From a virus: a stretch of 64,000 nucleotides of DNA. The stretch covers positions 45,552 through 109,551 of the IMG/VR virus record IMGVR_UViG_3300042351_000704; one strand, given 5' to 3'. A model generated the notes under the pieces. That model was not told the origin of the DNA. It saw only the letters and a program-made list of their open reading frames with translations, and made no database searches. How positions within the stretch are numbered: the stretch's first letter is position 1; the number at the start of each line of letters is the position of its first letter. The position numbers and the translations under genes were made by a program. Below, one piece after another: positions 49,957 through 63,324 of the stretch.

Positions 49957-50691
49957 ATGGCAAAAAAGTTTTACGCCCAGACAGACGCCCTAGGTTTCCC
50001 TATTCCGGGTACCATGATGTCACATATAGAAGTTCCTGTAGTTGATAACATATTGGAAATCACTACAAATATGCATCTTCCAGCTCATCCTGGGGGTCTT
50101 AGATACTACATACGCCTGGACGAGAAAGGGGCTATTTTACCTAATAGCCTGTTTATTCACTTTGATGTGATTGATCAGTCAGATGTAGTTAGCCTGCAAC
50201 AACCAAATGTAGTAATCTACACAGTTGGCCAGTCAGCATTGGGTGGTGTAATAGCCTACATTTTACAGCCAGGTGATGCTGGATATGATCCTAATGTACA
50301 GCACGGTTTGGTAACTACCAGTGGGAATGTGGATACCGGAGCTATATGGGGTTGTGTTGGAACTGCTATTCCTGGCGCTGCTGGTACAGCTATAGGAACT
50401 GGTTACCAAAATACACTGGACATAGTAGCTGGATGTAATTTTCCTTTTAGTGCAGCTGCCATCTGTAATGATTTAGACGAAGGTGGTTATACAGACTGGT
50501 TCTTACCTAGTAAAGATGAATTAAACAAGCTATACCTTAACAGAACACCTATCGGTGGCTTTGTTTCTTTCTACTTAAGTTCTACAGAAGCTGGTGATGA
50601 TACAGCGTGGGGTCAAAACTTTACCAATGGTGTACAGTTTGGCTATCCAAAAGATCAACCAATGTTTGTAAGAGCAATTAGAACTTACTAA
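49957..50691 (+). CDS. DUF1566 (Lcl-type) adhesin-like protein (244 aa)
   Basis: The C-terminal part has the DUF1566 signature: GYDPNVQHGLVTTS, then ICNDLDEGGYTDWFLPSKDE and a final AWGQNFTNGVQ and VRAIRTY. This lectin-like fold is widespread in bacterial surface proteins and in phage tail fibre or receptor-binding proteins. The N-terminal 100 residues (AKKFYAQTDALGFPIPG) look like a virion attachment part. It leads the + block, so it may be a host-recognition protein. No collagen-like or chaperone part was seen. Confidence 0.7.
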   Translation: MAKKFYAQTDALGFPIPGTMMSHIEVPVVDNILEITTNMHLPAHPGGLRYYIRLDEKGAILPNSLFIHFDVIDQSDVVSLQQPNVVIYTVGQSALGGVIAYILQPGDAGYDPNVQHGLVTTSGNVDTGAIWGCVGTAIPGAAGTAIGTGYQNTLDIVAGCNFPFSAAAICNDLDEGGYTDWFLPSKDELNKLYLNRTPIGGFVSFYLSSTEAGDDTAWGQNFTNGVQFGYPKDQPMFVRAIRTY

Positions 50692-50707
50692 ACCCACCTT
50701 CTAAGCA

Positions 50708-51031
50708 ATGGCATCACCACTTTTAGACAAGATCAAACTCTATTTGTTTCCTGGTCTGGCTTCTTTATTAGGGCTACTGATCTGGACTGCGGTGAACGAT
50801 GTAAAACAAGAACTAAAAGCTGTACGTGAGGACATGAAAATCCTGATGGCACAGTCTAACATAGATAAGACACGTATCGATAACCTTGAACGTGTGGTAT
50901 ATGGGAACATGACGACCAACCGTCTTCCTGAAAAAAAGCCTGCAGCCCAACCTGCATTCCTGCAGATCATCGCGGTAAAGCCCGAAGATCGCATCAGCCC
51001 TCAAGCAGATCCTGCTAAAAGAGCACTTTAA
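50708..51031 (+). CDS. Membrane-anchored coiled-coil protein (107 aa)
   Basis: One N-terminal transmembrane helix (LYLFPGLASLLGLLIWTAV), then a coiled coil (VKQELKAVREDMKILMAQ) and a Pro-rich tail. This is the layout of Rz-like spanins or small holin partners, and it sits in the lysis cassette. No lipobox. Which role it has cannot be told. Confidence 0.55.
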   Translation: MASPLLDKIKLYLFPGLASLLGLLIWTAVNDVKQELKAVREDMKILMAQSNIDKTRIDNLERVVYGNMTTNRLPEKKPAAQPAFLQIIAVKPEDRISPQADPAKRAL

Positions 51032-51042
51032 AAAATCAACAT

Positions 51043-51297
51043 ATGACCTTTAAACAATGGGTCCTCGACTTGTTAAAAGACGAGAGGGGGGCCACATCTA
51101 TCAAACCGGTAGTGGCTTTGGCGTGTACTATATTTCTTTGTCTCGCCCTTGTTGCAAACGCTTTTAACCGCACAGGTATATCACCATCTGACGCTTTGGT
51201 AGATGCCGTGATGTATGTATGTATCGCAGCCATGATTGGAGACACCGGTGATAAGTTCTCCTTACGTAAAAAACAAGAAAAACCTGAAGATGAATAG
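51043..51297 (+). CDS. Probable holin (84 aa)
   Basis: Two hydrophobic helices (VVALACTIFLCLALVANAF and LVDAVMYVCIAAMIGDTG) and a Lys/Glu-rich tail (LRKKQEKPEDE) match a class II holin. It is two genes upstream of the GH19 endolysin with a spanin-like gene between, so it fits a lysis cassette. The start is CATATG, and its end overlaps the next start by 8 bp. Confidence 0.65.
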   Translation: MTFKQWVLDLLKDERGATSIKPVVALACTIFLCLALVANAFNRTGISPSDALVDAVMYVCIAAMIGDTGDKFSLRKKQEKPEDE

Positions 51298-51916
51298 AGT
51301 AATAACCATCATCGTGATTGCTGTTGCAGTCATATTCTTCTTACAGCAAAACGGCTGTAATCCGATGAAGAACTACGGTCCTCCGAAGAGTGACACCATT
51401 ACGGTGCACGATACTGCGTGGAAGATCCACGACAGTTTGATATTCAGAAAGGTCGAGGTGTTAAAGACACTGCCGCCTATTCATGATACACTTCCGCCAC
51501 AGCTGATACCGGATACAAACTATGCTAAGCTTAAAGCTCAGTATGAGCATTTGTTAAACCAGCTTTATGCTATGAATATCTCTATAGATACCCTCAAGCT
51601 GGATACGATCGGTTGGGTTGCTATTACAGACACTGTAGAGCAAAACAAGATCAAAACTCGTTCTTATAAATATAACTACAAGGTTCCTACTATCACCAAG
51701 ACGACCACTATTACACACTATGCTGCTCCTAAAAGACAGATGTATGTAGGTGGAGGTATTGACATGAACTCTACCCTGGGTGTAAATGGCGTACACGGTG
51801 GTTTCCTGTATAAGAACAGGAAGGACCAAATTTTTGGACTAAACATCGGTACCACTGTAAATGGCGGTATCAATTACGGCTTCCAATCATATTGGAAGAT
51901 CAAACTAAAACAATAA
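51290..51916 (+). CDS. Spanin-like anchored protein (208 aa)
   Basis: The start MNRVITIIVIAVAVIF at 51290 gives one signal/anchor helix and an early Cys (QQNGC), which is a weak lipobox candidate. The middle repeats Asp-Thr motifs (HDTAWKIHDS, IPDTNYAKLK) and a coiled-coil part; the end is Gly/Tyr-rich with beta-barrel-like strands (MYVGGGIDMNSTLGVNG). This is the DUF6808-like architecture I associate with Bacteroidota phage spanin or envelope proteins. It overlaps the holin end. Role inferred. Confidence 0.5.
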   Translation: MNRVITIIVIAVAVIFFLQQNGCNPMKNYGPPKSDTITVHDTAWKIHDSLIFRKVEVLKTLPPIHDTLPPQLIPDTNYAKLKAQYEHLLNQLYAMNISIDTLKLDTIGWVAITDTVEQNKIKTRSYKYNYKVPTITKTTTITHYAAPKRQMYVGGGIDMNSTLGVNGVHGGFLYKNRKDQIFGLNIGTTVNGGINYGFQSYWKIKLKQ

Positions 51917-51918
51917 CT

Positions 51919-52206
51919 ATGAAAAAGATCATTGCTATCATTACAAAAATCGTTGCTACTGTAAAGAGCATCGTTGCTATCGTAAAAAAAGCATTAGGAC
52001 TGGTAAAAACCATCACTCCTGAACAAAAGAAAGAAGCTGAAACCATTGTCAAAGATGTTATCAAAGCAGTGGAAGAAGTAAAAGTTAAGCAAGCTGAAGC
52101 TCCTGTTGCACCTAAAGGCAACTTGATACCACTTGAAAGTGCTCCTGCAGCTCCTAAAAAGAAAAAGAAGTACTACAAGCCAAAGGCTAAGAGTAACTCT
52201 CTGTAA
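51919..52206 (+). CDS. Small Lys-rich amphipathic protein (95 aa)
   Basis: The start MKKIIAIITKIVATVKS is chosen as the first ATG after the preceding stop. The first 40 residues are an Ile/Lys-rich amphipathic or membrane helix, followed by an acidic/basic helix and a Lys-rich tail (KKKKKYYKPKAKS). In the lysis cassette it might be a membrane-disrupting peptide or a DNA-binding protein. No family recognised. Confidence 0.45.
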   Translation: MKKIIAIITKIVATVKSIVAIVKKALGLVKTITPEQKKEAETIVKDVIKAVEEVKVKQAEAPVAPKGNLIPLESAPAAPKKKKKYYKPKAKSNSL

Positions 52207-52220
52207 TAAACTTATACTAT

Positions 52221-52838
52221 ATGAATATTGATCGACTAAAGGGACATGTCCCTGACTCTATTATTGCACAAATACCCGGAGTGATGGAGAAGTTTGGTGT
52301 GAACACACCGCTACGACTTTCACACTTCCTGGCACAGTGTGGCCATGAGTCTGGTGGCTTTAGAGTGTTCTCTGAAAACCTGAACTACTCGGCTAAAGGC
52401 CTGGTAGGCATCTTTAAAAAATACTTTAAGCGTGCAGACGGCACTGTAGATGAGCCAAAAGCTGCAGCGTATGCGCGTCAGCCTATTAAAATAGCAAACC
52501 TGGTGTATGGTAACCGTATGGGTAATGGTCCGGAATCATCTGGTGATGGTTACAAATACCGTGGTCGCGGAGCAATCCAGCTGACTGGTAAAAGTAACTA
52601 TACAGCTTTCTTTAAAGCGGCAGGACTTCCACCGGAAACCAATCCGGATGTAGTGAGTACACAGTATGCTTTGTTATCTGCTGCCTGGTTCTGGAGCAGC
52701 AACGGTTTGAATAAACTGGCTGATGGTGGCGCCACTGATGCAGTGGTAACATCTATTACTAAAAGAGTGAACGGTGGCACCATTGGTTTGCCGGACCGTA
52801 TTAAGCACTTTAAAGAATACCACGCATTACTCGTATAA
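52221..52838 (+). CDS. GH19 endolysin (205 aa)
   Basis: CGHESGGF with Glu43 as catalytic acid and ENLNYSAKGL with Glu52, then KYRGRGAIQLTGKSNY, the core of GH19 lysozymes/chitinases. It should cut peptidoglycan at the end of the cycle. No signal peptide, so export relies on the holin. Standard length for a single-domain enzyme. It has the TATATG start context. Confidence 0.9.
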   Translation: MNIDRLKGHVPDSIIAQIPGVMEKFGVNTPLRLSHFLAQCGHESGGFRVFSENLNYSAKGLVGIFKKYFKRADGTVDEPKAAAYARQPIKIANLVYGNRMGNGPESSGDGYKYRGRGAIQLTGKSNYTAFFKAAGLPPETNPDVVSTQYALLSAAWFWSSNGLNKLADGGATDAVVTSITKRVNGGTIGLPDRIKHFKEYHALLV

Positions 52839-52858
52839 CCCTATAAAACATAAAACCA

Positions 52859-52987
52859 ATGGCTGTTAAAAAATCTACAACAGGATCACGTAAAGTTTCC
52901 TTTGGGAAACGAAAAGGAGGCAAGGCTAAAAAGTCTAGCGGACCTAAAGACAAGCCTGTGAAAAAGTATCAAGGACAAGGAAGATAA
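52859..52987 (+). CDS. Small basic protein (42 aa)
   Basis: Reading starts MAVKKSTTGSRKVSFGKR and ends KKYQGQGR before TAA: 13 Lys and 4 Arg of 42 residues, no hydrophobic core, so it is likely to bind nucleic acid or be a virion decoration. The context ACCAATGG is not the usual one. It fills the gap between endolysin and the next gene. I recall similar KYxGQGR tails on small proteins of Bacteroidota phages. Confidence 0.5.
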   Translation: MAVKKSTTGSRKVSFGKRKGGKAKKSSGPKDKPVKKYQGQGR

Positions 52988-53017
52988 TATCTTCCTTTTC
53001 TTTTAATATATAACTCT

Positions 53018-53650
53018 ATGACACTGATTAATCGTATAAAAGAAAAACTGGTACTGATCCCAATCTACCTGGCTCTCACCTGGGTAATACTGGCTGTAAT
53101 ATTCCAGATGTTTATGGTTGGACTTCATTTTGCAGGTCAGGAAGAAACCATCCGCACTATTGTAAACTGGTTTGACTGGAAGTTTGACGGACGTTTTAAG
53201 AACTCTCCCGGTAATATTTGGTACGAAGAGCCTAAAGTGATTCATGTAGGCAGTGTCACTAACGCTGTGGTGGTAGGTCCACTTACCGGCAATCGCAAGC
53301 TAGAGTTTGGTGTGAAGAATGTAATAGAAGAAGTGCTGCAGGATAAAGAATATAACCTGGACAGTACAGCTTCTATGAAACTTACAGCAGAGATTATCTA
53401 CCTGGATGTATTAAAGACAGAGTCAAGTTTTTCTGTGATACATAAAAACAAAGAGTCTGTTGTTATCAGATTAAGGGGTCAATTACTCAAAGATGGTAAG
53501 GTAAAAAAGAAAGCTACCGTTGAAGAGTCTGCAGATGAGATCTCTTTGAGTACACTCGCCATTGACCAGGGCGGTAAGTTCAACCAGCAGAACCTGAGCT
53601 CTGCATTAAAAAAAGCTTCAGAATCTTTAGTTAACAAGTTGATCAACTAA
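53018..53650 (+). CDS. Inner-membrane-anchored protein (210 aa)
   Basis: One N-terminal transmembrane helix (IPIYLALTWVILAVIFQMF), then a soluble alpha/beta domain facing the periplasm (VVVGPLTGNRKLEFGVKN...IYLDVLKTES). The domain's beta pattern and the final LVNKLIN helix are reminiscent of YajG/CsgG-type small domains. It leads a block of exported proteins, so it may anchor or feed them. No family named with confidence. Confidence 0.45.
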   Translation: MTLINRIKEKLVLIPIYLALTWVILAVIFQMFMVGLHFAGQEETIRTIVNWFDWKFDGRFKNSPGNIWYEEPKVIHVGSVTNAVVVGPLTGNRKLEFGVKNVIEEVLQDKEYNLDSTASMKLTAEIIYLDVLKTESSFSVIHKNKESVVIRLRGQLLKDGKVKKKATVEESADEISLSTLAIDQGGKFNQQNLSSALKKASESLVNKLIN

Positions 53651-53651
53651 T

Positions 53652-55760
53652 ATGAAAAGAACGTTCTTATTTCTACTGATCTTACTCAGTGTGACTATGT
53701 CATCTTTTGCCCAGATTAAGTTCAGGGCTTTATCGTCTGTAGGGGGTGTTACACTTGCTAGAGGAGGAGAGTTTGACTATATTATTCAAGCCAATGGTAA
53801 TGGTAACACTAGTACTCGTCAGTTATTATTTGATGTACAGTATGATAAAGACAACTTTGAAATTGTTTCTGTCAATCATACCGGTACAGGAGGAAATGGT
53901 GGCGTGCTTCCTCAAAACTCTAACCCACAAATTTCCTGGACCAACTACCCGTTGTATAATTTTGTAACTTCTGCACAGAACACCACTGCTAATGGTACTA
54001 CTAACTACCAGTTTGCTAACTATAATTATTCTACAAGCAATGTGTATGCCATCTTAAGAGCTACACTTACCTGGTCTACTAACAGTGGTATGCCTTATAC
54101 AGGTTATGACCGCATGATTGTTATTAAGTTCAGACTAAGAGCTAATTCTACAGCTTTCAGTTTTAATCCGATCAGATTAAACTTTGTAGCAGGCTGGACC
54201 GGAGCTGGTCAGTGGGATAATACTATTATGGAAAGTCCATTATCTACATCTGTTATAATGAACCAAAACTTTGGTAAGTATATCAGCGCCAAGGTGGACC
54301 TGAACACAAACCTTTTTAATCTTTCTAATGTAAGAGTATCTTTTAGAGATACTGCTACCAATACAGGCGTGATATTCCCTGTTACTTCTACAGGAGAAGT
54401 AGATATCAACCAGTCTCAACTGGCTGCCAATAAAGTGTATGACATCACAGTTATGCATGAGCTGGATAAGCTTTACACTATATACAATAATGCAATTACT
54501 ATATCAGATTTTACAACGTCTCAATCAGAGTTTACTTCTATGGGTCTTGATGGCTCAAAAGGTGTAACACTCAAGACTGGTCAGTCCCTATATGCTGCAG
54601 ATATCAACAGGAATAGGTCATTGGATGGTGGAGATCTTCCACGTTTACTGTCACAAGTGACGGGTATTGATACTTTGATAACACTACCTGCGGGATATGT
54701 TGCCGGCAGTGGCGGATTTATGAGTCTTCCTACCTGGCTTGGTACAGATGCTATAACAACTGCAGGACAAGTAGAGTGGTGTGTAATTACACCAAACGCT
54801 TATGGACAGGGAGTGAGCCGTATCCAGGTAGATATGAGAGAGTTTAACGGAACAGGTGTAACACCTGCTGATATAAAAAGTATACAGTTATTTGACATCT
54901 TTTCTGGTGTTGTAGAGTTTATGAGCAATGATGCTACATGGGCTACTTATAAGGTGGTGAGTAACTTATCTAAAGCCACTGATGGATCTTCTGTGAACTT
55001 ATCAAACATACGTAACATCAACGGTTCTTCTGATTATGGCTTACAGGCAGAGTTTACATTTAATACTTCTCCTGGTGCTTCATGGAACTCGATCACTACC
55101 TCTAACTGGAAGAACATCACTGCACCAAAAGTATTTTACAGAACAGGTGCACTTGGAACTAATCAGTTCCTGGACCTGAAATATTTATTATGGGGTGATG
55201 TGAACAGATCACACTCTTCTCAAGTGGTAGTAAGCAGCGCTGGTACAAATACTGTACAGACTAATGCTGCAGTGAGTATGCAAACAAATACTGCATTCAG
55301 AAATGAAGCGTCTTTATACGTGAATAATCCTGGACCAGTGAGTGAATCGATCGATGTAAATCTTACTAATCTTACAGTAACATCAAACAGTGTTGAGATA
55401 CCGGTGAGTGTAGATCCAAAAGGAGCTTTAGTAAGTGGATTACAGTTTGAGTTTACGTTTGATCCTGCTAAGATAAAATTTGAAGAGCTTCTAGCTAACG
55501 TACCTAATACATGGTATGTATTTGCCAGCTGTAAAGACGGACGTGTAAAGTTTGGAGCATTGGATCAGAACAAGACTACAAGTCTGTCTACTACTACAGT
55601 GCCGTTCAAGTTAAAGTTCTCAACTATTGGAGAGGGTGTAAACATTATTACATCTGTAAAAGTATCTGCACTGATGGACGCCAGTGATGCCAAAGGCAAT
55701 CAGCTGGGTATGAATCTGAACACTACACAAATCAAGTTAACCGGTTATAATAATTTCTAA
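53652..55760 (+). CDS. Secreted cohesin/dockerin-like protein (702 aa)
   Basis: A clear Sec signal peptide (KRTFLFLLILLSVTMSSFA, cleavage before Gln21). Residues about 25-190 and about 565-700 look like cohesin-type beta sandwiches (DVQYDKDNFEIVSV; LQFEFTFDPAKIKFEELL). Between them lies a dockerin-like calcium motif (YAADINRNRSLDGGDLPRLL, about 313-332) and a shorter second one (WGDVNRS). Proteins of this type bind partners on the cell surface in Bacteroidota. A phage copy with its own signal peptide should act on the outside or in the envelope of the infected cell. It starts right after the preceding stop. Confidence 0.65.
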   Translation: MKRTFLFLLILLSVTMSSFAQIKFRALSSVGGVTLARGGEFDYIIQANGNGNTSTRQLLFDVQYDKDNFEIVSVNHTGTGGNGGVLPQNSNPQISWTNYPLYNFVTSAQNTTANGTTNYQFANYNYSTSNVYAILRATLTWSTNSGMPYTGYDRMIVIKFRLRANSTAFSFNPIRLNFVAGWTGAGQWDNTIMESPLSTSVIMNQNFGKYISAKVDLNTNLFNLSNVRVSFRDTATNTGVIFPVTSTGEVDINQSQLAANKVYDITVMHELDKLYTIYNNAITISDFTTSQSEFTSMGLDGSKGVTLKTGQSLYAADINRNRSLDGGDLPRLLSQVTGIDTLITLPAGYVAGSGGFMSLPTWLGTDAITTAGQVEWCVITPNAYGQGVSRIQVDMREFNGTGVTPADIKSIQLFDIFSGVVEFMSNDATWATYKVVSNLSKATDGSSVNLSNIRNINGSSDYGLQAEFTFNTSPGASWNSITTSNWKNITAPKVFYRTGALGTNQFLDLKYLLWGDVNRSHSSQVVVSSAGTNTVQTNAAVSMQTNTAFRNEASLYVNNPGPVSESIDVNLTNLTVTSNSVEIPVSVDPKGALVSGLQFEFTFDPAKIKFEELLANVPNTWYVFASCKDGRVKFGALDQNKTTSLSTTTVPFKLKFSTIGEGVNIITSVKVSALMDASDAKGNQLGMNLNTTQIKLTGYNNF

Positions 55761-55764
55761 GACT

Positions 55765-56139
55765 ATGAAAGAAACAAGCAAACTACTACTGATCTATTTG
55801 TTCTGTATCGTATTAGCCATCATTGCGTGCACTAAGATCGCTATGGAACCCGCACCAGTGATTGACCTGGGTGTACAGTCTACATCTACAGGTATCAAGA
55901 CTATTGTACAAACTGGAAACACTTTGGATGTAGAGTTTACAACTACACCAGGTGCAAAGTATTCTGTACAAGTGGTGCCTTTTGGAAAAGAAGAACCTGT
56001 TAAGAAAGAAGGCTTCACTGCAGTGAGTGAAATTACAAAGAAGTCTTATGACCTGTCTGCGTTACCAAAGCGTGACTATGATTTTGTCTTTATAGACATC
56101 AATGGTAAAGAAGTAAAATATCCTATAGTTATTAAATAA
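55765..56139 (+). CDS. Lipoprotein (124 aa)
   Basis: A hydrophobic leader (LLLIYLFCIVLAIIACTKIA) ends in a lipobox-like IIAC, so lipid attachment at Cys22 is likely. The mature part is beta-rich (YSVQVVPFGKEEPVKKEGF), like a small Ig-like or carboxypeptidase-regulatory fold. It lies between the cohesin-like protein and membrane genes and could anchor the former. No family recognised. Confidence 0.6.
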   Translation: MKETSKLLLIYLFCIVLAIIACTKIAMEPAPVIDLGVQSTSTGIKTIVQTGNTLDVEFTTTPGAKYSVQVVPFGKEEPVKKEGFTAVSEITKKSYDLSALPKRDYDFVFIDINGKEVKYPIVIK

Positions 56140-56154
56140 TAAAAACAACACACT

Positions 56155-56460
56155 ATGTCAGAAGAACAAGCAAGCACCGGTGGTTCTTTAAAGAACATTC
56201 TCATCGGTTTAGTATCAACCGTCACCCTAGGTGTGGGTGGATGGTTTACCAGTAAACTTACTGGTGAAGACGAAAAAGAAGCAGCTCCTGCTGCCGCGGC
56301 TCCTGTAATCAACATTACCAACTCTAACCAACAAGCACAGCAAGCTGCTGCAGGTGGTAAGACCGTTATCATCAAGGAAAAAGAAGTTGCAGCTAAACCA
56401 GCTCCAGCTAAAGTTAAAAAAGACGGTGATGAGTTTAAAGAAGAAGCCCCTAAATGGTAA
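56155..56460 (+). CDS. Single-pass membrane protein with Ala/Lys-rich tail (101 aa)
   Basis: One helix (ILIGLVSTVTLGVGGWFTS), then a Pro/Ala/Lys/Glu tail (EAAPAAAAPVINI; KEKEVAAKPAPAKVKKDG). It resembles small TonB- or spanin-like proteins whose tail spans the periplasm. Function unknown. Start in the CACTATG context. Confidence 0.45.
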   Translation: MSEEQASTGGSLKNILIGLVSTVTLGVGGWFTSKLTGEDEKEAAPAAAAPVINITNSNQQAQQAAAGGKTVIIKEKEVAAKPAPAKVKKDGDEFKEEAPKW

Positions 56461-56463
56461 GTT

Positions 56464-56571
56464 ATGGCAAATGCTAAGAAGAAAAAAAGAGCCATGCGAT
56501 CGATCCGCTCAGGCCGTAAGACGACAGCTCAGATTAAGAAAAACCAGGAAATATTAAAAACTTATGAGTAA
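56464..56571 (+). CDS. Tiny basic protein (35 aa)
   Basis: Reads MANAKKKKRAMRSIRSGRK and ends LKTYE before TAA; about 13 Lys/Arg in 35 residues, so nucleic-acid binding is likely. Start GTTATGG; the end overlaps the next start (ATGAGTAA) by 8 bp, which supports translation. Confidence 0.5.
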   Translation: MANAKKKKRAMRSIRSGRKTTAQIKKNQEILKTYE

Positions 56572-57163
56572 TCAAGAACCAAACACAGGCTTCAGGGAAC
56601 TCCTGAATGCCATGATGCAAAGACGTTGGTACATCACTGCAGGTGTACTCGGTGGATTTATACTAATTATTGCAGGAATCTTTACAGCTGTATCCAATAA
56701 CGCCACTATGGCGGGTGAATGGAAAGAGTTGTTAATGCTTTTACTGGGTGCCTTTATTGGCTCTTACGGTAAGATCATTGACTACTGGTTCTCTGATACA
56801 GATAAAGATAAGATGCTGGTACAGAAGATGGATGAAGAAGATGGAGTTTCTATGGGTCATACTAATGACATGAAAGAAACTAACAGACCTTTTACACCAA
56901 TTGTACCGGATGCTTTTGTTGCCGGAGCACAAGCTGCCCGTGAACTGGCTGTTGTAGAAAACAAACAACGCTATGACCTGCAAAAAGATGAGCAGGAACA
57001 CAGACAAATTCTTGAAGCTGACCAACAAGAACACGAACAAGAAATGGAAAAGCTGGAATTTGAACACCAGGAGCACCGTCAGTGCGAACATGTATGGGGT
57101 GACTCAGATCATGATGGTGAACTTGAATGCCAGAAATGTGGTAGGATTAAAGATCCGCACTAA
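56564..57163 (+). CDS. Membrane protein with coiled coil and C-terminal zinc ribbon (199 aa)
   Basis: Two hydrophobic helices (YITAGVLGGFILIIAGIFTA; LLMLLLGAFIGSYGKIIDYW) as in a holin-like protein, then a Glu/Gln-rich coiled coil (DEQEHRQILEADQQEHEQE) and a Cys/His end (CEHVWGD...CQKCGRIKDPH) fitting a zinc ribbon. An unusual combination: the ribbon would face the cytoplasm or periplasm next to the membrane. A role in lysis timing or as a docking site is possible. Confidence 0.5.
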   Translation: MSNQEPNTGFRELLNAMMQRRWYITAGVLGGFILIIAGIFTAVSNNATMAGEWKELLMLLLGAFIGSYGKIIDYWFSDTDKDKMLVQKMDEEDGVSMGHTNDMKETNRPFTPIVPDAFVAGAQAARELAVVENKQRYDLQKDEQEHRQILEADQQEHEQEMEKLEFEHQEHRQCEHVWGDSDHDGELECQKCGRIKDPH

Positions 57164-57194
57164 TTGTTAACGTAACCCTTCTACATGGACACTG

Positions 57195-57413
57195 ATGACC
57201 AAAAGAAACAGACTAAAACTATTACGTTCCTGTCGGGATGCCAGCTTAATGGCTGCCATGTTCTTCCTGCCGCTGGGGTACGATCTCTTGTTCAAGACGC
57301 TTTTAGATTACACTGGGAGCTTCTGGGCCACCGATATCATATTCTACTCGCTGTCAGGGGTGTTCTGGCTGTCCTACTTCTTGCTGTCCAGATATTTAAA
57401 ACCTAAGACATGA
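57195..57413 (+). CDS. Small two-helix membrane protein (72 aa)
   Basis: Basic start (TKRNRLKLLRSCRDASLM), then two hydrophobic helices (AAMFFLPLGYDLLF and IIFYSLSGVFWLSYFLL). The stop overlaps the next start as ATGA, supporting this frame over the competing frame at 57185-57406. Function unknown. Confidence 0.5.
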   Translation: MTKRNRLKLLRSCRDASLMAAMFFLPLGYDLLFKTLLDYTGSFWATDIIFYSLSGVFWLSYFLLSRYLKPKT

Positions 57414-58138
57414 AAAAATTCTTATTGATACTGCTGTTTATAACGCTGATGCTTATCAACGGGATAAATGCACAGCAGATTGCGGCTACCAAGACAGAGC
57501 AGTATAAAGCCAGCTTTGAAAAAGCTATTGACATTTCACAGTTCCTGGACTATGATGGTCCACAGATTCCTGTGCAGATACTCAAGTGCGGTATATCAGA
57601 TGAGATGTATGAACTCTATCCGGAGCTCAAAGAGAAACGAGTAGGCCTTGGTGTGGCCAATATTTCTATGGAATATTTAGAGAACCTAAACAGGTTCAAG
57701 TTTACAGAAGATAAAACAGAGATCAAGAACCGTATGGTAAAACAGTTCCAGGCATCACAAGCCGGGATCTCCGAGAACAAATTAGATGGACGTGGCAAGA
57801 TCAACCTTGCCAAGTACTTTGTTACTATAGAATGTTATGATTACTCTGTATCAGAAGATGAAACGATTTCACTTAAGGATGGTACAAAGCAACTCATGGT
57901 TACGCGTATTGGTTTACAGGTCAGATTCACTGATGCTGAAACTGGTGTGGTGTTTTCAGGTTCTGGTCTTGGCGATGCAAAAACTACGAAAGAAGTAGCC
58001 GGCATCACCTCTGACGCTACCCTGGACCCGGTTAAGTTTAACCAGTCTACTATCTCCATTGCTACAAAAAAAGCTCTTGACATAGCGTGCGCCAGGATCC
58101 TGGATCGCATGATCAAGAAAGGAATCTTTACGAAGTAA
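57410..58138 (+). CDS. CsgG-like exported protein (242 aa)
   Basis: Sec signal peptide (KKFLLILLFITLMLINGINA, cleaved before Gln). The mature part fits the CsgG/curli secretion family: an alpha/beta domain with SMEYLENLNRFKFTED, then KYFVTIECYDYSVSE and the hallmark VRFTDAETGVVFSGSGLGD and a closing ALDIACARILDRM helix. CsgG forms a lipoprotein pore in the outer membrane, but no lipobox Cys follows the leader here. It may act as a periplasmic ring or a variant pore. It is followed at once (TAATG) by a barrel-like outer-membrane protein gene. Confidence 0.6.
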   Translation: MKKFLLILLFITLMLINGINAQQIAATKTEQYKASFEKAIDISQFLDYDGPQIPVQILKCGISDEMYELYPELKEKRVGLGVANISMEYLENLNRFKFTEDKTEIKNRMVKQFQASQAGISENKLDGRGKINLAKYFVTIECYDYSVSEDETISLKDGTKQLMVTRIGLQVRFTDAETGVVFSGSGLGDAKTTKEVAGITSDATLDPVKFNQSTISIATKKALDIACARILDRMIKKGIFTK

Positions 58139-59421
58139 TGTGGAGGGGCCTATGTGTTGTTTTGTTCATATTATTTTCTAGCGCTTATGCTAACGGCCAG
58201 GTCATTGTACAAACGTTCACAGACCCTTGTACTAAAACAGTTTCTACGTTTACAATCCCTCTTACTGGCAGCACTGTCATTATTTTTTACAATAAGTCTA
58301 GGACTTTTACTGCTGCTGATGTACAGTCTGGTGAATTTACTAGGTGGATCAATCAGGTGTATGAAGACTACCGCAAATTATCTCCGTGTTCTGTGGCTCA
58401 AGCTGCAGCTACTAGCACTCAAATTACAGCCACTGCTGTATCTGCTGCAGTAAGTTCAGCAGCCAGTGCCGCTGCGTCAACAGCAGCCGCTTCTGCAGCG
58501 TCTTCTGCTGCTTCCAGTGCTGCCTCATCGGCAGCCAGCTCTGCGGGCAGTTCTGCCGCAAGTTCAGCTTCTTCCTCCGCCAGTAGCTCTGCCGCTAGTT
58601 CAAGCAATTCTCAAGGATCGAGCTCAGAGTCTAGCAGCAGCAGCTCTAGCAGCGGGGAAAGTTCTTCAAGTTCAGAGTCTTCTTCAAGTTCAGACTCTAA
58701 GAGTGAATCTAAAAGTGAAAGTAAGTCAGAGTCTAAGAGCTCTTCTAAAGGCTCTTCTAAAGGGGGTGGTAGGGCAGCTGCCCGTGTAAACCCAATATTG
58801 TTTAATTCCGACTTTACAGGGGGTCAATCCCTGGACAAGTCTGTGAATGTTATTGCTACGTTTGGAATGTCCCAGTCATCTATGACCGGACAGTCATCCT
58901 GGGGTGTAACCGGGATGGTATGGAGTAACCTGCAACAGTTTGCACTGAGCTCCAGGTATACTAAAATGAATTTTCAGGAAGGTAAACTACAGAGCATCTC
59001 CAACTGGGGTGCTACGGTTGCTTCCGCCTTTGGGAGCCATTTTGGCTTTATTACTTATGCCTACATTTATCCCAACAAGTGGGGTGTAGCTGGTGTCAAC
59101 ACTACAATATCTGTTGCCAAGGCTGAAGACGAGTATAGTGTTACTAACTCTATGCTTTTTTTCTTTACCAAGTCTTTTCCTATTAATAAAAAGCTCAGTA
59201 TTTCTCCGGATATCTACATGTCCGGAAGTCCGCTTACGTATCTGACTAAACAGCGAGCATTTGTGGAGTCTCCTGACATGGGATTCATGACAGGTGCTGC
59301 TGTAGATTATGCACTGACTAAGCGGTTTAAGTTTAACATAGGTGTCCGGACCAGTATCTCTACTAATCCGGACTTACCCATATTAATTTTTGGTGTCATA
59401 GGCTCTAAGATGAACCTATAA
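58138..59421 (+). CDS. Outer-membrane barrel-like protein with Ser/Ala-rich linker (427 aa)
   Basis: The start at 58138 (TAATG overlap with the preceding stop) gives a signal peptide (CVVLFILFSSAYANG). A small N-terminal domain bounded by two Cys follows. Residues about 100-215 are a low-complexity linker: Ala/Ser-rich, then Ser/Glu/Lys-rich. The C-terminal 210 residues have alternating strands (SLDKSVNVIATFGMSQ; LSISPDIYMSGSPLTY; FKFNIGVRTSIST) that fit an outer-membrane beta-barrel. A longer start at 58087 would overlap the upstream gene by 52 bp and break the signal peptide. Possibly a phage-made cell-surface protein. Confidence 0.55.
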   Translation: MWRGLCVVLFILFSSAYANGQVIVQTFTDPCTKTVSTFTIPLTGSTVIIFYNKSRTFTAADVQSGEFTRWINQVYEDYRKLSPCSVAQAAATSTQITATAVSAAVSSAASAAASTAAASAASSAASSAASSAASSAGSSAASSASSSASSSAASSSNSQGSSSESSSSSSSSGESSSSSESSSSSDSKSESKSESKSESKSSSKGSSKGGGRAAARVNPILFNSDFTGGQSLDKSVNVIATFGMSQSSMTGQSSWGVTGMVWSNLQQFALSSRYTKMNFQEGKLQSISNWGATVASAFGSHFGFITYAYIYPNKWGVAGVNTTISVAKAEDEYSVTNSMLFFFTKSFPINKKLSISPDIYMSGSPLTYLTKQRAFVESPDMGFMTGAAVDYALTKRFKFNIGVRTSISTNPDLPILIFGVIGSKMNL

Positions 59422-59801: not shown

Positions 59802-59823
59802 TAGGTAACGAGTTGGTTACCTA
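59802..59823 (-). terminator. Hairpin at the end of the VWA gene
   Basis: A perfect 8-bp inverted repeat (TAGGTAAC with GTTACCTA, 6-nt loop) overlaps the TAG stop of the VWA gene on the - strand. No good U-tract follows, so it is a weak terminator or a protein-binding palindrome. The rest of the gap 59731-59820 is AT-rich, with nothing else clear. Confidence 0.45.
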
Positions 59824-61326
59824 GACAGCTTTTCCATCTAACCCTACTTGATATATACGTGATCCGTTAAATATGATACATTGTCCTTTATCCATGTACT
59901 TCTCGTCAAAGGAGTTAAACCTTGCTCCTTCTACACCAATAAAGAATGCTTTTTCTGAGTAGATGCTGCAATGATCTTCTGCATCAGTAATCACTAAAGC
60001 GTTGTTACCTATAAGTTCAATGTTACGTACTGCGTTGTCAATAGTTGTACCGCCACCACAATCTATCATAGAGATAGATATCAGGTCGTTGCGGTATTTC
60101 TTAACGCGTGTATCAAACAAGTAGACATCGTTTAGCATGTCCAGTTGTTTTAGTTTAGCAACCATAGACTTAGCAAAATCTATCTTGGAGATATACCTGT
60201 CTTCTGTATTCACTACACCACAGCTGCTGGACATAGATCCTGATACATCTATATAGACATCGATCTTGCCCACATACTTGTAGTCTTTGATCTGGATGTC
60301 TTCTAAAAATATCGTACGTAGCTTGGGATGCAGTAGTATATAATCTTCAAGTCCGGAAACATCCTGGGAGTTAAGCAGATCATCATAGATGGTTTCTTTG
60401 CGTGCAGAAAAATATGCAGCACTCTTGTCCAAAAGCTTTTGTAACTTTTCTTTGAGTGAACCCATAGAGATATTAATACGCTCGAGTCTTTCAGCAACTT
60501 TTCGGAAATAATCCGGAGAGAGCTTTGCAGGTTGACCGCTACCACCTTTATAGGAGTCTTCAAAAAGTTTTTCCTGGGTTTCTTTATCAACGTGCTGGTC
60601 CATCATATTACAGGTATCCTGTGCATCTTTCATAGCTTTATCCAGCATGTTCTTGCTCAGCTGATTGTTGAGCATTTTATCCATGGCATTGTCGATATCG
60701 TCTTGGTTGAACTGATTATCGTCACCACCACCCAGACCGTTCTGCATTTGCTGATGAGCTTCCGGATCAATGTATTCCATCATGGTCATCTGCATCATGT
60801 AGTAGAGCATCATCTGTTTGGTAAAGATGGCGCTTTTTAGGTTGGACCCTTCAGACATAATCTTACCTACAGGATTGTTAGCTTTCTCTAGGAACTTGTA
60901 ACGCGTATTGTTTTTATCAGTACGCTCTTCAAATTCAAGCTTGTCGATCTTGTTGTAATACATCTTGTGAATGTCATACTTCATGTGCTCAGGAAACTTT
61001 CTATAGTTCTGTTGCAGCTTGGTATGAAATGCATTCATGTCAGGTTTTTTATCCTGGTCTAGTTTATCAAAAGCTGTACTGCGGGCAAACCGGTTGTAGT
61101 ATTCTTTGATAGACTCCATGCTGTAGATCTCTTTATTCACAATGCTTGAGATCTTGGTCTCATCTATGTAATGGATGTATGGCTTGATAAGATCTGCTTT
61201 TTTATAAAAGTTCAGCTTACCAAACAAACCACCATCATCGGCTTTATAGTGTGATTGTATTTCACCCTTCTTGACTTTCTCAAGGATGGTGTATACGTTT
61301 TTATATTGTTTGCTTTTAGCAGCCAT
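59821..61326 (-). CDS. VWA-domain protein partnered with MoxR ATPase (501 aa)
   Basis: The C-terminal domain (about 350-490) holds the MIDAS metal site: VYIDVSGSMSSS (DxSxS), then DCGGGTTIDNAV with the Thr, and NALVITDAEDH with the Asp. The N-terminal 340 residues are helical with Lys/Asp-rich stretches. It is the next gene but a hairpin apart from the MoxR AAA+ gene. This MoxR/VWA pair is known as a chaperone-like module (RavA/ViaA, CobS/CobT) that remodels protein complexes. The target in a phage is unknown. Confidence 0.8.
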   Translation of the reverse strand: MAAKSKQYKNVYTILEKVKKGEIQSHYKADDGGLFGKLNFYKKADLIKPYIHYIDETKISSIVNKEIYSMESIKEYYNRFARSTAFDKLDQDKKPDMNAFHTKLQQNYRKFPEHMKYDIHKMYYNKIDKLEFEERTDKNNTRYKFLEKANNPVGKIMSEGSNLKSAIFTKQMMLYYMMQMTMMEYIDPEAHQQMQNGLGGGDDNQFNQDDIDNAMDKMLNNQLSKNMLDKAMKDAQDTCNMMDQHVDKETQEKLFEDSYKGGSGQPAKLSPDYFRKVAERLERINISMGSLKEKLQKLLDKSAAYFSARKETIYDDLLNSQDVSGLEDYILLHPKLRTIFLEDIQIKDYKYVGKIDVYIDVSGSMSSSCGVVNTEDRYISKIDFAKSMVAKLKQLDMLNDVYLFDTRVKKYRNDLISISMIDCGGGTTIDNAVRNIELIGNNALVITDAEDHCSIYSEKAFFIGVEGARFNSFDEKYMDKGQCIIFNGSRIYQVGLDGKAV

Positions 61327-61379: not shown

Positions 61380-62975
61380 TTAGAATGTTGCTTCAACTGG
61401 CATATCTGATACAACAGATTCTGCAATCATCTGGTCAAACTCTTCTGAAGTTTGATAGTCTTTACGTGCAGGGTGAGTAGAGATGATGTACTGCATGCTC
61501 ATTTCGATTTCTTCCACCTGTCCTTCGTCCATCATATTGCGTGATGTATACGTGTTGATCAGGCTTTCGATCTCAGCTACTGCCAGCTCGAGCTGTTCGT
61601 TGCTGGTGTAAGAATGTAACATCTCCACTTTGCTCATCACAGTCTTTACTTCCGGTGACATCAGTTTATTCTGAAGCTCTGAACCTGCGTTCTGAGAGAT
61701 CATGATCTGTGCTGTCTTTACAAGGGCTTTGTCTGTTGATACATCCCAGATGTAGCTCACTGCTTTGGTAAGCGTTGGTACAAATGTTAGAGTACGGTCA
61801 GAGCTGTGCTGGTAACCCACTTCTAAATACTTTTCCAGCTTGTTGGTTGGTATCTCTACAGCATTGATTTCTGTTTTGGTAGGAATGCCAATCTTGTAGC
61901 TTTCTTTGTATTCGCGTGCACCTTTGTTGTAGTACTTAACTAACTCACCGGCAGATACACGGTTTACAGTGTGTTTCAGCATGAAGCGGTCCCAGAAAGG
62001 AGAGTTTGCTTCTTCTTTAGGAATCTCGTTACAGGTAGCAACAAAAAGCTTCCACTTACATGGGATTTTGTTTTTACCGTTGAAGAGAAACTTCTCGTTC
62101 ATAACACCAAGCATGGCATTACGGATAGCAGAGCTTGCTTTGTCCACCTCGTTGATGATAACGATCTCTGCATCGGCAATCGGTGCATGGATCTCATACT
62201 GGTTCTCGGTGAATAGTTTGTCAAGAGCAGGCATACCCTTGATCTCAGATGCCTTGGTACCTTCATCGGTCTCAAGGATATATATTTTGTTGTTAAAATC
62301 TGCAGCAGACATTTTACCGTCTCTGTTCAACCAGGCTTTTGCATAGTCGAGTACTGATTTGGTTTTAGCAACCCCGGGCTGACCCACTAATAATAATGGC
62401 AGACCGGTACTCTCTGCAAGAGCAAGCATCTTAAATACTTCTTCCTTGTTGATCAAAGAGGTGTCAATACTACGCACTTCCTGTGCTGATTTCTTGTTGA
62501 TTGTCTTAACTTTAGACATGTTCTGATTGAGTTTAAAAGTTTGTGGAGAGTTTTCTGCAGGCATGGGCCTGATAACGAGTTTGAAAGATTCACAAGCAAT
62601 AAACCCGCTGTGAAAGCTGGTATGTTTATTGCCGTTTTCTATATAAGATTTGGTATTACCGATATGAGGGTGCACTTTGACGCCAGCAACGCCTGGATAA
62701 TACATACCCAGTTCAGTGACAGTGGCCTGTATACCGATTTCGTCCTGGCCGCAACCAGAACCGCTTTTGACTACTTCCACTATGTCTCCCACTTCAAATG
62801 GGTTTATCTTTATCATAGTAGAAGAAAGATTAAGTGGTTGAAAGGGTACTTTGGCCCGGACCCATCGCTGTACACCATTAGAAGTTGCAACAATTTCCCA
62901 AGGCATTCCATCATTGCCGTTCATACGTGTACCTACCGGATAACTGGTAGCACTTGCTGTTGGTGATGGTCTCAT
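61380..62975 (-). CDS. MoxR-type AAA+ ATPase with N-terminal extension (531 aa)
   Basis: Walker A LLLVGQPGVAKTKSVLDY (about residues 190-207), Walker B IVIINEVDKASSAIRNA (about 267-283) and sensor FVATCNEIPKEE give an AAA+ ATPase of the MoxR/GvpN/CobS group. About 150 residues come before it, containing YPVGTRMNGNDGMPWEIV and a barrel-like MIKINPFEVGDIVEVVKSGS, which are unusual for MoxR and may bind a substrate. The start at 62975 follows the upstream stop directly (TAGTATG); the longer reading from 63110 overlaps that gene. The partner is the VWA protein downstream. Confidence 0.8.
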   Translation of the reverse strand: MRPSPTASATSYPVGTRMNGNDGMPWEIVATSNGVQRWVRAKVPFQPLNLSSTMIKINPFEVGDIVEVVKSGSGCGQDEIGIQATVTELGMYYPGVAGVKVHPHIGNTKSYIENGNKHTSFHSGFIACESFKLVIRPMPAENSPQTFKLNQNMSKVKTINKKSAQEVRSIDTSLINKEEVFKMLALAESTGLPLLLVGQPGVAKTKSVLDYAKAWLNRDGKMSAADFNNKIYILETDEGTKASEIKGMPALDKLFTENQYEIHAPIADAEIVIINEVDKASSAIRNAMLGVMNEKFLFNGKNKIPCKWKLFVATCNEIPKEEANSPFWDRFMLKHTVNRVSAGELVKYYNKGAREYKESYKIGIPTKTEINAVEIPTNKLEKYLEVGYQHSSDRTLTFVPTLTKAVSYIWDVSTDKALVKTAQIMISQNAGSELQNKLMSPEVKTVMSKVEMLHSYTSNEQLELAVAEIESLINTYTSRNMMDEGQVEEIEMSMQYIISTHPARKDYQTSEEFDQMIAESVVSDMPVEATF

Positions 62976-62976
62976 A

Positions 62977-63324
62977 CTAGAGGTTTGCGAAGGCTGCGAA
63001 TGAATCAGTTTCCACTTCTGTTGTGTTGTGCTCCACAGGTAATAATTGTTCAGGTGTATTATTCCCTGACCCTTGAGGTGCGGGTTGGCTGGTTTCCAAA
63101 GTGGTTTCATTTTTTGTGTCGTCTATGATTACAAATACTCTTGCTGTAGTTTCCAGGTCTCTTAGAGCCGGGTGTTTACGGATGGTGTTGATTTGTATAT
63201 CAGACGCCAAATACTTTTCCTGAATAGAGCCAAAGCCCAGATCGTCCTTCTTAAACCAGGTATAGCCGGTTGCTAATAATTCTTTTATCGTTGTTACGCC
63301 CAGTTGTACTTGTTCTACTGCCAT
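62977..63324 (-). CDS. Hypothetical acidic protein (115 aa)
   Basis: The start MAVEQVQLGVTTIKELL at 63324 avoids overlap with the UDG gene. The N-terminal half (LLATGYTWFKKDDLGFGSIQ, then IQINTIRKHPALRDLE) is compact and could be a small winged-helix-like domain. The C-terminal part is a disordered acidic tail ending FAAFANL, like a docking tail. No family recognised. Confidence 0.5.
   Translation of the reverse strand: MAVEQVQLGVTTIKELLATGYTWFKKDDLGFGSIQEKYLASDIQINTIRKHPALRDLETTARVFVIIDDTKNETTLETSQPAPQGSGNNTPEQLLPVEHNTTEVETDSFAAFANL

Follow-up and report, generated by a model that had tools for sequence, protein, structure and literature searches.

A recurrent cassette in Bacteroidota phages combining predicted CsgG-fold and FapF-like proteins with variable adhesin-type payloads

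Phage-borne CsgG has been described in partial curli operons of the pelagimyophage HTVC008M and the methylophage Melnitz (PMC7029224, PMC9004378). Aggregation, or 'sibling capture', was raised as a use for the pelagimyophage curli (PMC7029224), and the Melnitz CsgG was proposed to act as a gated secretin or pinholin; clumping was not seen with Melnitz (PMC9004378). These papers give CsgA and CsgB equivalents as missing or unrecognised in the HTVC008M-type operon. By eye, two exported proteins adjoining CsgG in HTVC008M (L203; 4872-5558 and 6639-7964) have curlin-like N...Q repeats, one with a PA14-like front. Two further systems are relevant: FapF, built from an N-terminal coiled coil, a disordered linker and a plugged 12-strand barrel (PMC5557850), and Llp of phage T5, a lipoprotein that blocks the receptor (PMC9586334).

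Here we analyse a window of 64,000 nucleotides at the end of an IMG/VR virus record 109.5 kb long, in which eight co-directional plus-strand genes (A to H, 53018-59421) lie downstream of an endolysin gene. Like the HTVC008M and Melnitz operons, this cassette places a predicted outer-membrane protein of the CsgG fold within a short phage operon. The HTVC008M protein is recognised by Pfam as CsgG (1.8e-54), carries a lipobox and is accompanied by CsgF and curlin-type genes; the cassette lacks lipobox, CsgF and curlin repeats, and instead has a FapF-like barrel, a YajG-like paralogue, membrane proteins and a cohesin/lectin payload. Compared with curli secretion (CsgG, type VIII), the fold of G is alike, but the cassette has no CsgA, CsgB, CsgE or CsgF and no lipid anchor, and membrane hairpins are not evident in a comparison by eye. 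Two features set it apart from the CsgG system: the missing lipid anchor and the missing CsgF/curlin partners, neither CsgF nor curlin subunits being found among the B-slot proteins or the gene families around G. The barrel protein H shares the FapF order of N-domain, disordered linker and 12-strand barrel (with the side of the membrane predicted), but its linker is longer and Ser-rich and its sequence does not match FapF; among the neighbours scanned, no fapA-E gene and no C39 protease FapD was recognised.

The isolated Flavobacterium phage vB_FspM_immuto carries the same cassette as gp013-gp019, comprising lectin and cohesin proteins, D, G (52%), H and A, annotated only as hypothetical, lectin or cohesin domain-containing. 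It differs in gene order, in a T9SS tail on the cohesin protein and in being T4-like. Cellulosome-type scaffolds likewise hold cohesin and dockerin-like modules in one locus, but the cassette has no enzymes and any pairing between its modules is putative. T5 Llp is a works-like analogue, a single small lipoprotein without export apparatus or demonstrated homology. Our literature search found no paper on phage proteins with T9SS sorting domains or on cohesin/CsgG phage cassettes; we found no earlier description of the cassette as a unit, phage-borne CsgG and CsgF being already known from pelagimyophages and Melnitz.

Carrier phage and gene run

Terminase and capsid matches suggest a crAss-like phage of Bacteroidota. 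The terminase resembles those of crAss-like phages over ~90% of its length at ~25% identity; the capsid gives weak matches to cr6_1, cr10_1 and others, the fullest being to a Leptolyngbya phage, and a Gp23 capsid was not found. Searching public phages for sequence nearly identical to the window's first 25 kb returned no match. Positions 907-32530 encode a run of giant proteins (1754, 1194, 1630, 3112 and 1761 aa), with no PHROG match at 0.001 among those scanned.

The cassette belongs to a single plus-strand series (49957-59421) whose gaps do not exceed 31 bases, except for 103 bases before E. The product of its first gene (49957-50691) has an Lcl_C domain at 2.6e-8, slightly below the cut-off, and a C terminus matching phrog_4245, making a lectin-like protein or fibre tip possible. 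Lysis-type genes stand in the order one-TM protein, holin-like, spanin-like and endolysin, with A to H next. The holin-like two-TM protein (51043-51297, plus strand), so called from size and topology only, belongs to a family that lies inside the cassette in other phages. A one-TM periplasmic protein (51290-51916, plus strand) with no family name is a spanin candidate from its sequence and its position before the endolysin (52221-52838, plus strand; PHROG endolysin 1.1e-70, Glyco_hydro_19). All three are treated as associated genes and not as core.

A sequence-only reading had described the block as at least four exported and four membrane proteins, one a lipoprotein, with several overlapping stops and starts. 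Its gene positions are correct, and so is the count: B, C, G and H are exported and A, D, E and F are membrane proteins, with signal peptides and membrane segments called from sequence without a trained predictor. C has the lipobox IIAC. F and G overlap by 4 bases, G and H as TAATG, and A and B are spaced by 1 base. On the minus strand beyond H, 59821-61326 and 61380-63110 encode a MIDAS-containing (DVSGSMSS) protein and an AAA ATPase, a pair kept beside the cassette in close relatives.

Predicted export core

G (57410-58138, plus strand) is the most conserved member, exported with a predicted cleavage at NAQ/QIA. An AlphaFold2 model from 41 relatives (pLDDT 75.8) was compared with the PDB; the first 20 matches are all CsgG (best E 3.9e-7, with a moderate TM-score of about 0.47), followed by HpaA, GNA1162 and PelC. 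In a viral library, the model matched one protein annotated CsgG. The earlier label of CsgG-like is upheld by this model and by Pfam CsgG matches in 2 of the 41 relatives (best 1.8e-4), though the window protein itself has no Pfam CsgG match. A G profile found nothing useful among PDB sequences and gave no useful alignment to the single HTVC008M CsgG sequence, so the kinship of these two proteins rests on fold.

The lipidation signal of CsgG, a Cys at the mature N terminus, is absent from window G, and the AQ site is common to its relatives. Among these, a permissive lipobox pattern picked out 11 of 71, which we judged to be Cys residues within the hydrophobic core. Stretches equivalent to the CsgG transmembrane hairpins, matched by eye, are 20 and 25 residues long (versus 26 and 39), have no aromatics and are 35% and 24% charged. 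Because the lipidation site is lacking and the hairpin stretches are short and free of aromatics, G may be a periplasmic ring and not a pore; we consider a soluble periplasmic ring as likely as a pore.

By profile-profile comparison, A (53018-53650, plus strand) is a remote relative of G (94% probability, E 9.3e-8), the two having a KFNQ...KKA motif in common. A carries an anchor at its N terminus and a domain resembling YajG/Lipoprotein_16, with Lipoprotein_16 matched by 13 of 32 relatives (Pfam, best 2.2e-6). One of the 32 matches TraT, a plasmid surface-exclusion lipoprotein, at 0.0019, a weak hit that agrees with an exclusion role.

H (58138-59421, plus strand) is exported (cleavage ANG/Q) and probably starts at the ATG at 58138, leaving a GTG at 58087 unused. 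Its AlphaFold2 model has an N-domain (about residues 22-81), a helix, a disordered Ser/Ala-rich linker (residues 107-214, about 58501-58779) and a barrel of twelve main strands (residues 220-426, about 58795-59415). The first 18 PDB matches are all FapF (best E 7.7e-8), with KdgM/NanC and autotransporter barrels next. The TM-score to FapF is moderate, about 0.36 of the query, and the match may reflect any 12-strand barrel. One relative matches the DUF5777 barrel family. Model, fold search and this match agree with the outer-membrane barrel claimed before.

The remaining membrane proteins are small. D (56155-56460, plus strand) has one TM segment and a conserved tail, ...DEFKEEAPKW. E (56564-57163, plus strand) has two TM segments, a hydrophilic tail and a Cys/His-rich end, and no clear family was found for it in Pfam or PHROG. 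Many relatives of E (for example L050:6166-6774) have DxDGDGxxDGxDxDGDG calcium-type repeats and a CxxC end; the repeats are absent from window E. F (57195-57413, plus strand) is a two-TM protein of 72 aa. Pfam and PHROG matches of D, E, F and the holin-like family to TssN (0.003-0.016) or Zot-like proteins (0.008) were weak and inconsistent, and we set them aside as transmembrane look-alikes.

Payload slot and recurrence among phages

B (53652-55760, plus strand) is a payload candidate, an exported protein of 702 aa with a signal peptide ending SSFA/Q, a dockerin-like loop, a C-terminal cohesin and the terminal motif IKLTGYNNF. B had been described as cohesin/dockerin-like. The cohesin (residues 580-690, 55389-55721, plus strand) is recognised by Pfam PF00963 at 25.8 bits against a gathering cut-off of 24.1; the dockerin part is a calcium-loop motif read from sequence, ADINRNRSLDGGDLPRLL (residues 316-333, 54597-54650, plus strand), with no Pfam Dockerin_1 (PF00404) match in window B. 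A PDB sequence search with B gave nothing useful, and tblastn with B found no match in named phages.

Across 62 B-slot proteins, Pfam finds Cohesin in 36 (E up to 0.01), Lectin_C in 16, the T9SS sorting domain Por_Secre_tail in 16, Laminin_G_3 in 4 and Dockerin_1 in 4 (best 2.2e-4); NCBIfam TIGR04183 is found in 15. Window B matches no NCBIfam family and has no C-terminal T9SS sorting domain. Counted by locus, the C terminus of B is IKLTGYNNF in 26, sorting-domain-like in 22 (by pattern), neither in 19 and both in none; G, H and D are kept whether or not the payload has a sorting domain. The lipoprotein C (55765-56139, plus strand; lipobox ...LAIIAC) has relatives in 26 loci, and a second lipoprotein family occurs in 12.

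In IMG/VR, relatives of G are found at 487 viral loci with one query and at 113 with the immuto protein. Around G in 71 non-redundant viral loci we find H in 70, D in 69, the B family in 68 (1 to 4 copies), A in 55 (and distantly in 11 more), the holin-like family in 46, E in 44 and an endolysin in 41. Every companion family is always on the same strand as G, except the endolysin (85%). The block had been put forward as something to look for in other phages, and its recurrence on one strand in 71 loci is beyond chance. Two layouts are seen, A-B-C-D-E-(h/F)-G-H in the window type and B(B)(B)-D-G-(E)-H-A in immuto, and cassette flanks vary between loci.

Carriers fall into different virion types, with a crAss-like terminase match in 9 of 36 cassette-bearing records, a T4-like Gp23 capsid in 18 and both in none. 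In a tree of G, the crAss-like sequences group together with support, next to four from T4-like phages, and a single transfer between the two phage types is enough to explain this. We considered several independent swaps; the tree needs only one change. Window G shares 81-88% protein identity with the T4-like loci L049, L051, L055 and L101, yet fourfold sites agree at only 28-35%, where chance gives 27%. Synonymous saturation at this protein identity points to an old divergence of G under very strong protein-level selection, and we rejected recent transfer as the sole cause of its conservation because fourfold sites are so near chance. At a terminase identity of about 30%, crAss-like phages have G proteins that are 84-89% identical, while B in these phages is 24-26% identical to window B.

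A tblastn search with G matched only immuto. For a cellular origin of the cassette, genome contigs were scanned with two short patterns, giving a single match, a phage-like piece in a Flavobacterium MAG. This 12.6 kb contig (L117) holds the cassette with an endolysin and an HNH-like gene, a 139-aa exported protein replacing H, and is probably phage DNA that binning assigned to a bacterial genome.

Possible roles in the infected cell

The block had been read as a phage-made surface or secretion apparatus. As anatomy this is well supported: the cassette combines a CsgG fold and a FapF-like barrel with lipoproteins and a payload of adhesin type, relatives carry T9SS sorting signals, and unrelated phages conserve it. 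At roughly even odds (about 0.5), we read it as a mobile cassette with which the phage re-equips the outer membrane of an infected Bacteroidota host through a constant export core and a variable adhesin payload. Gene content, predicted export, folds, conservation and payload domains are directly supported; from them we infer G and H as channel, B as cargo, the timing and the purpose. D would be an inner-membrane protein, A and G would lie either in the periplasm or at the outer membrane, and H would be in the outer membrane, its long flexible linker and N-domain probably facing the periplasm. G would dock on H as channel or anchor, and the core would export or anchor B-slot proteins (cohesin, dockerin, C-type lectin, laminin-G) and the lipoproteins C. 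B-slot proteins of other phages carry signals for the host type IX system; window B, with its IKLTGYNNF tail and no T9SS domain, presumably exits through the cassette's own G/H, a presumed route that counts against the export reading. The possible ring form of G and the moderate TM-scores of G and H weigh against it as well. The stronger claim of a new phage-encoded outer-membrane secretion system, in which a CsgG-fold ring and a FapF-like barrel export interchangeable cohesin/dockerin/lectin adhesins and pass between phages with unrelated virions, is possible and distinctly more tentative. Equally tentative, and drawn by analogy, is receptor masking, the use we think likeliest for displayed proteins: they would cover or alter phage receptors, keeping rivals out and sparing progeny from sticking to debris, much as T5 Llp reportedly blocks its receptor.

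The cassette would be expressed late in infection, alongside the lysis genes. Of 21 large contigs, 15 have an endolysin from the same family as the window's no more than 7.5 kb from G, in several different arrangements; placing a single endolysin at random would give 2.5, though related phages among the 21 are not independent. This proximity speaks for a late, envelope-directed role, although in immuto the cassette adjoins replication and nucleotide genes; it also fits a lysis role, and it does not choose between the uses suggested in the earlier reading, namely blocking superinfection, remodelling the surface, clumping and aiding release. Our main rival is a lysis device, which we hold to be somewhat unlikely: an outer-membrane step in which G, H and A assemble with the small membrane proteins into a complex, trans-envelope or pore-like, that would breach the outer membrane as the endolysin works, with B and C as scaffold or regulators. 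The holin-like family, often inside the cassette, the continuity of the window cassette with lysis genes in one operon and the role proposed for Melnitz CsgG all speak for it. Lectin, laminin-G and T9SS-tagged payloads hardly fit, the window phage is already equipped with an endolysin gene and with holin-like and spanin-like genes, and in immuto-type phages the cassette, next to genes for replication and nucleotide functions, is about 8 kb from the endolysin.

Adhesin-type domains, with matching cohesin and dockerin parts in one cassette, would also suit adhesive display, the exported cohesin, dockerin and lectin proteins binding infected cells together or fixing them to new hosts or particles, as was imagined for pelagimyophage curli. 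We think this unlikely given the Melnitz result and the lack of a curlin repeat family in the B slot. Sorting domains in 16 of the 62 slot proteins could instead mean that the chief effect of the cassette is to overload or divert the type IX secretion system of the host or the host's gliding adhesins; window-type cassettes lack such a domain, and the persistence of G, H and D with or without it on the payload makes this very unlikely. Phages can bear lectin-like domains on their tails, and the proteins might be virion or tail parts only resembling exported ones. Signal peptides, a lipobox and T9SS sorting domains on many members, together with a position away from capsid and tail genes in the window phage and among replication genes in T4-like immuto, render this the least probable reading.

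If the re-equipping reading is right, abundant freshwater Bacteroidota phages, crAss-like and T4-like, share a dedicated means of rebuilding the host outer surface, with G 81-89% identical across phages in which the terminases share about 30% identity or no recognisable relationship. The cassette would also begin to account for the hypothetical exported genes that stand in long series in these phages. Immuto, isolated on Flavobacterium sp. LMO8, makes roles in superinfection, aggregation and lysis directly testable. Beside the cassette at L055:10644-11246 and at 10 other loci, often adjoining H or B, is an exported DNA/RNA non-specific endonuclease (PF01223, 1.2e-19), which could attack phage DNA on its way in through the periplasm, or DNA from debris.
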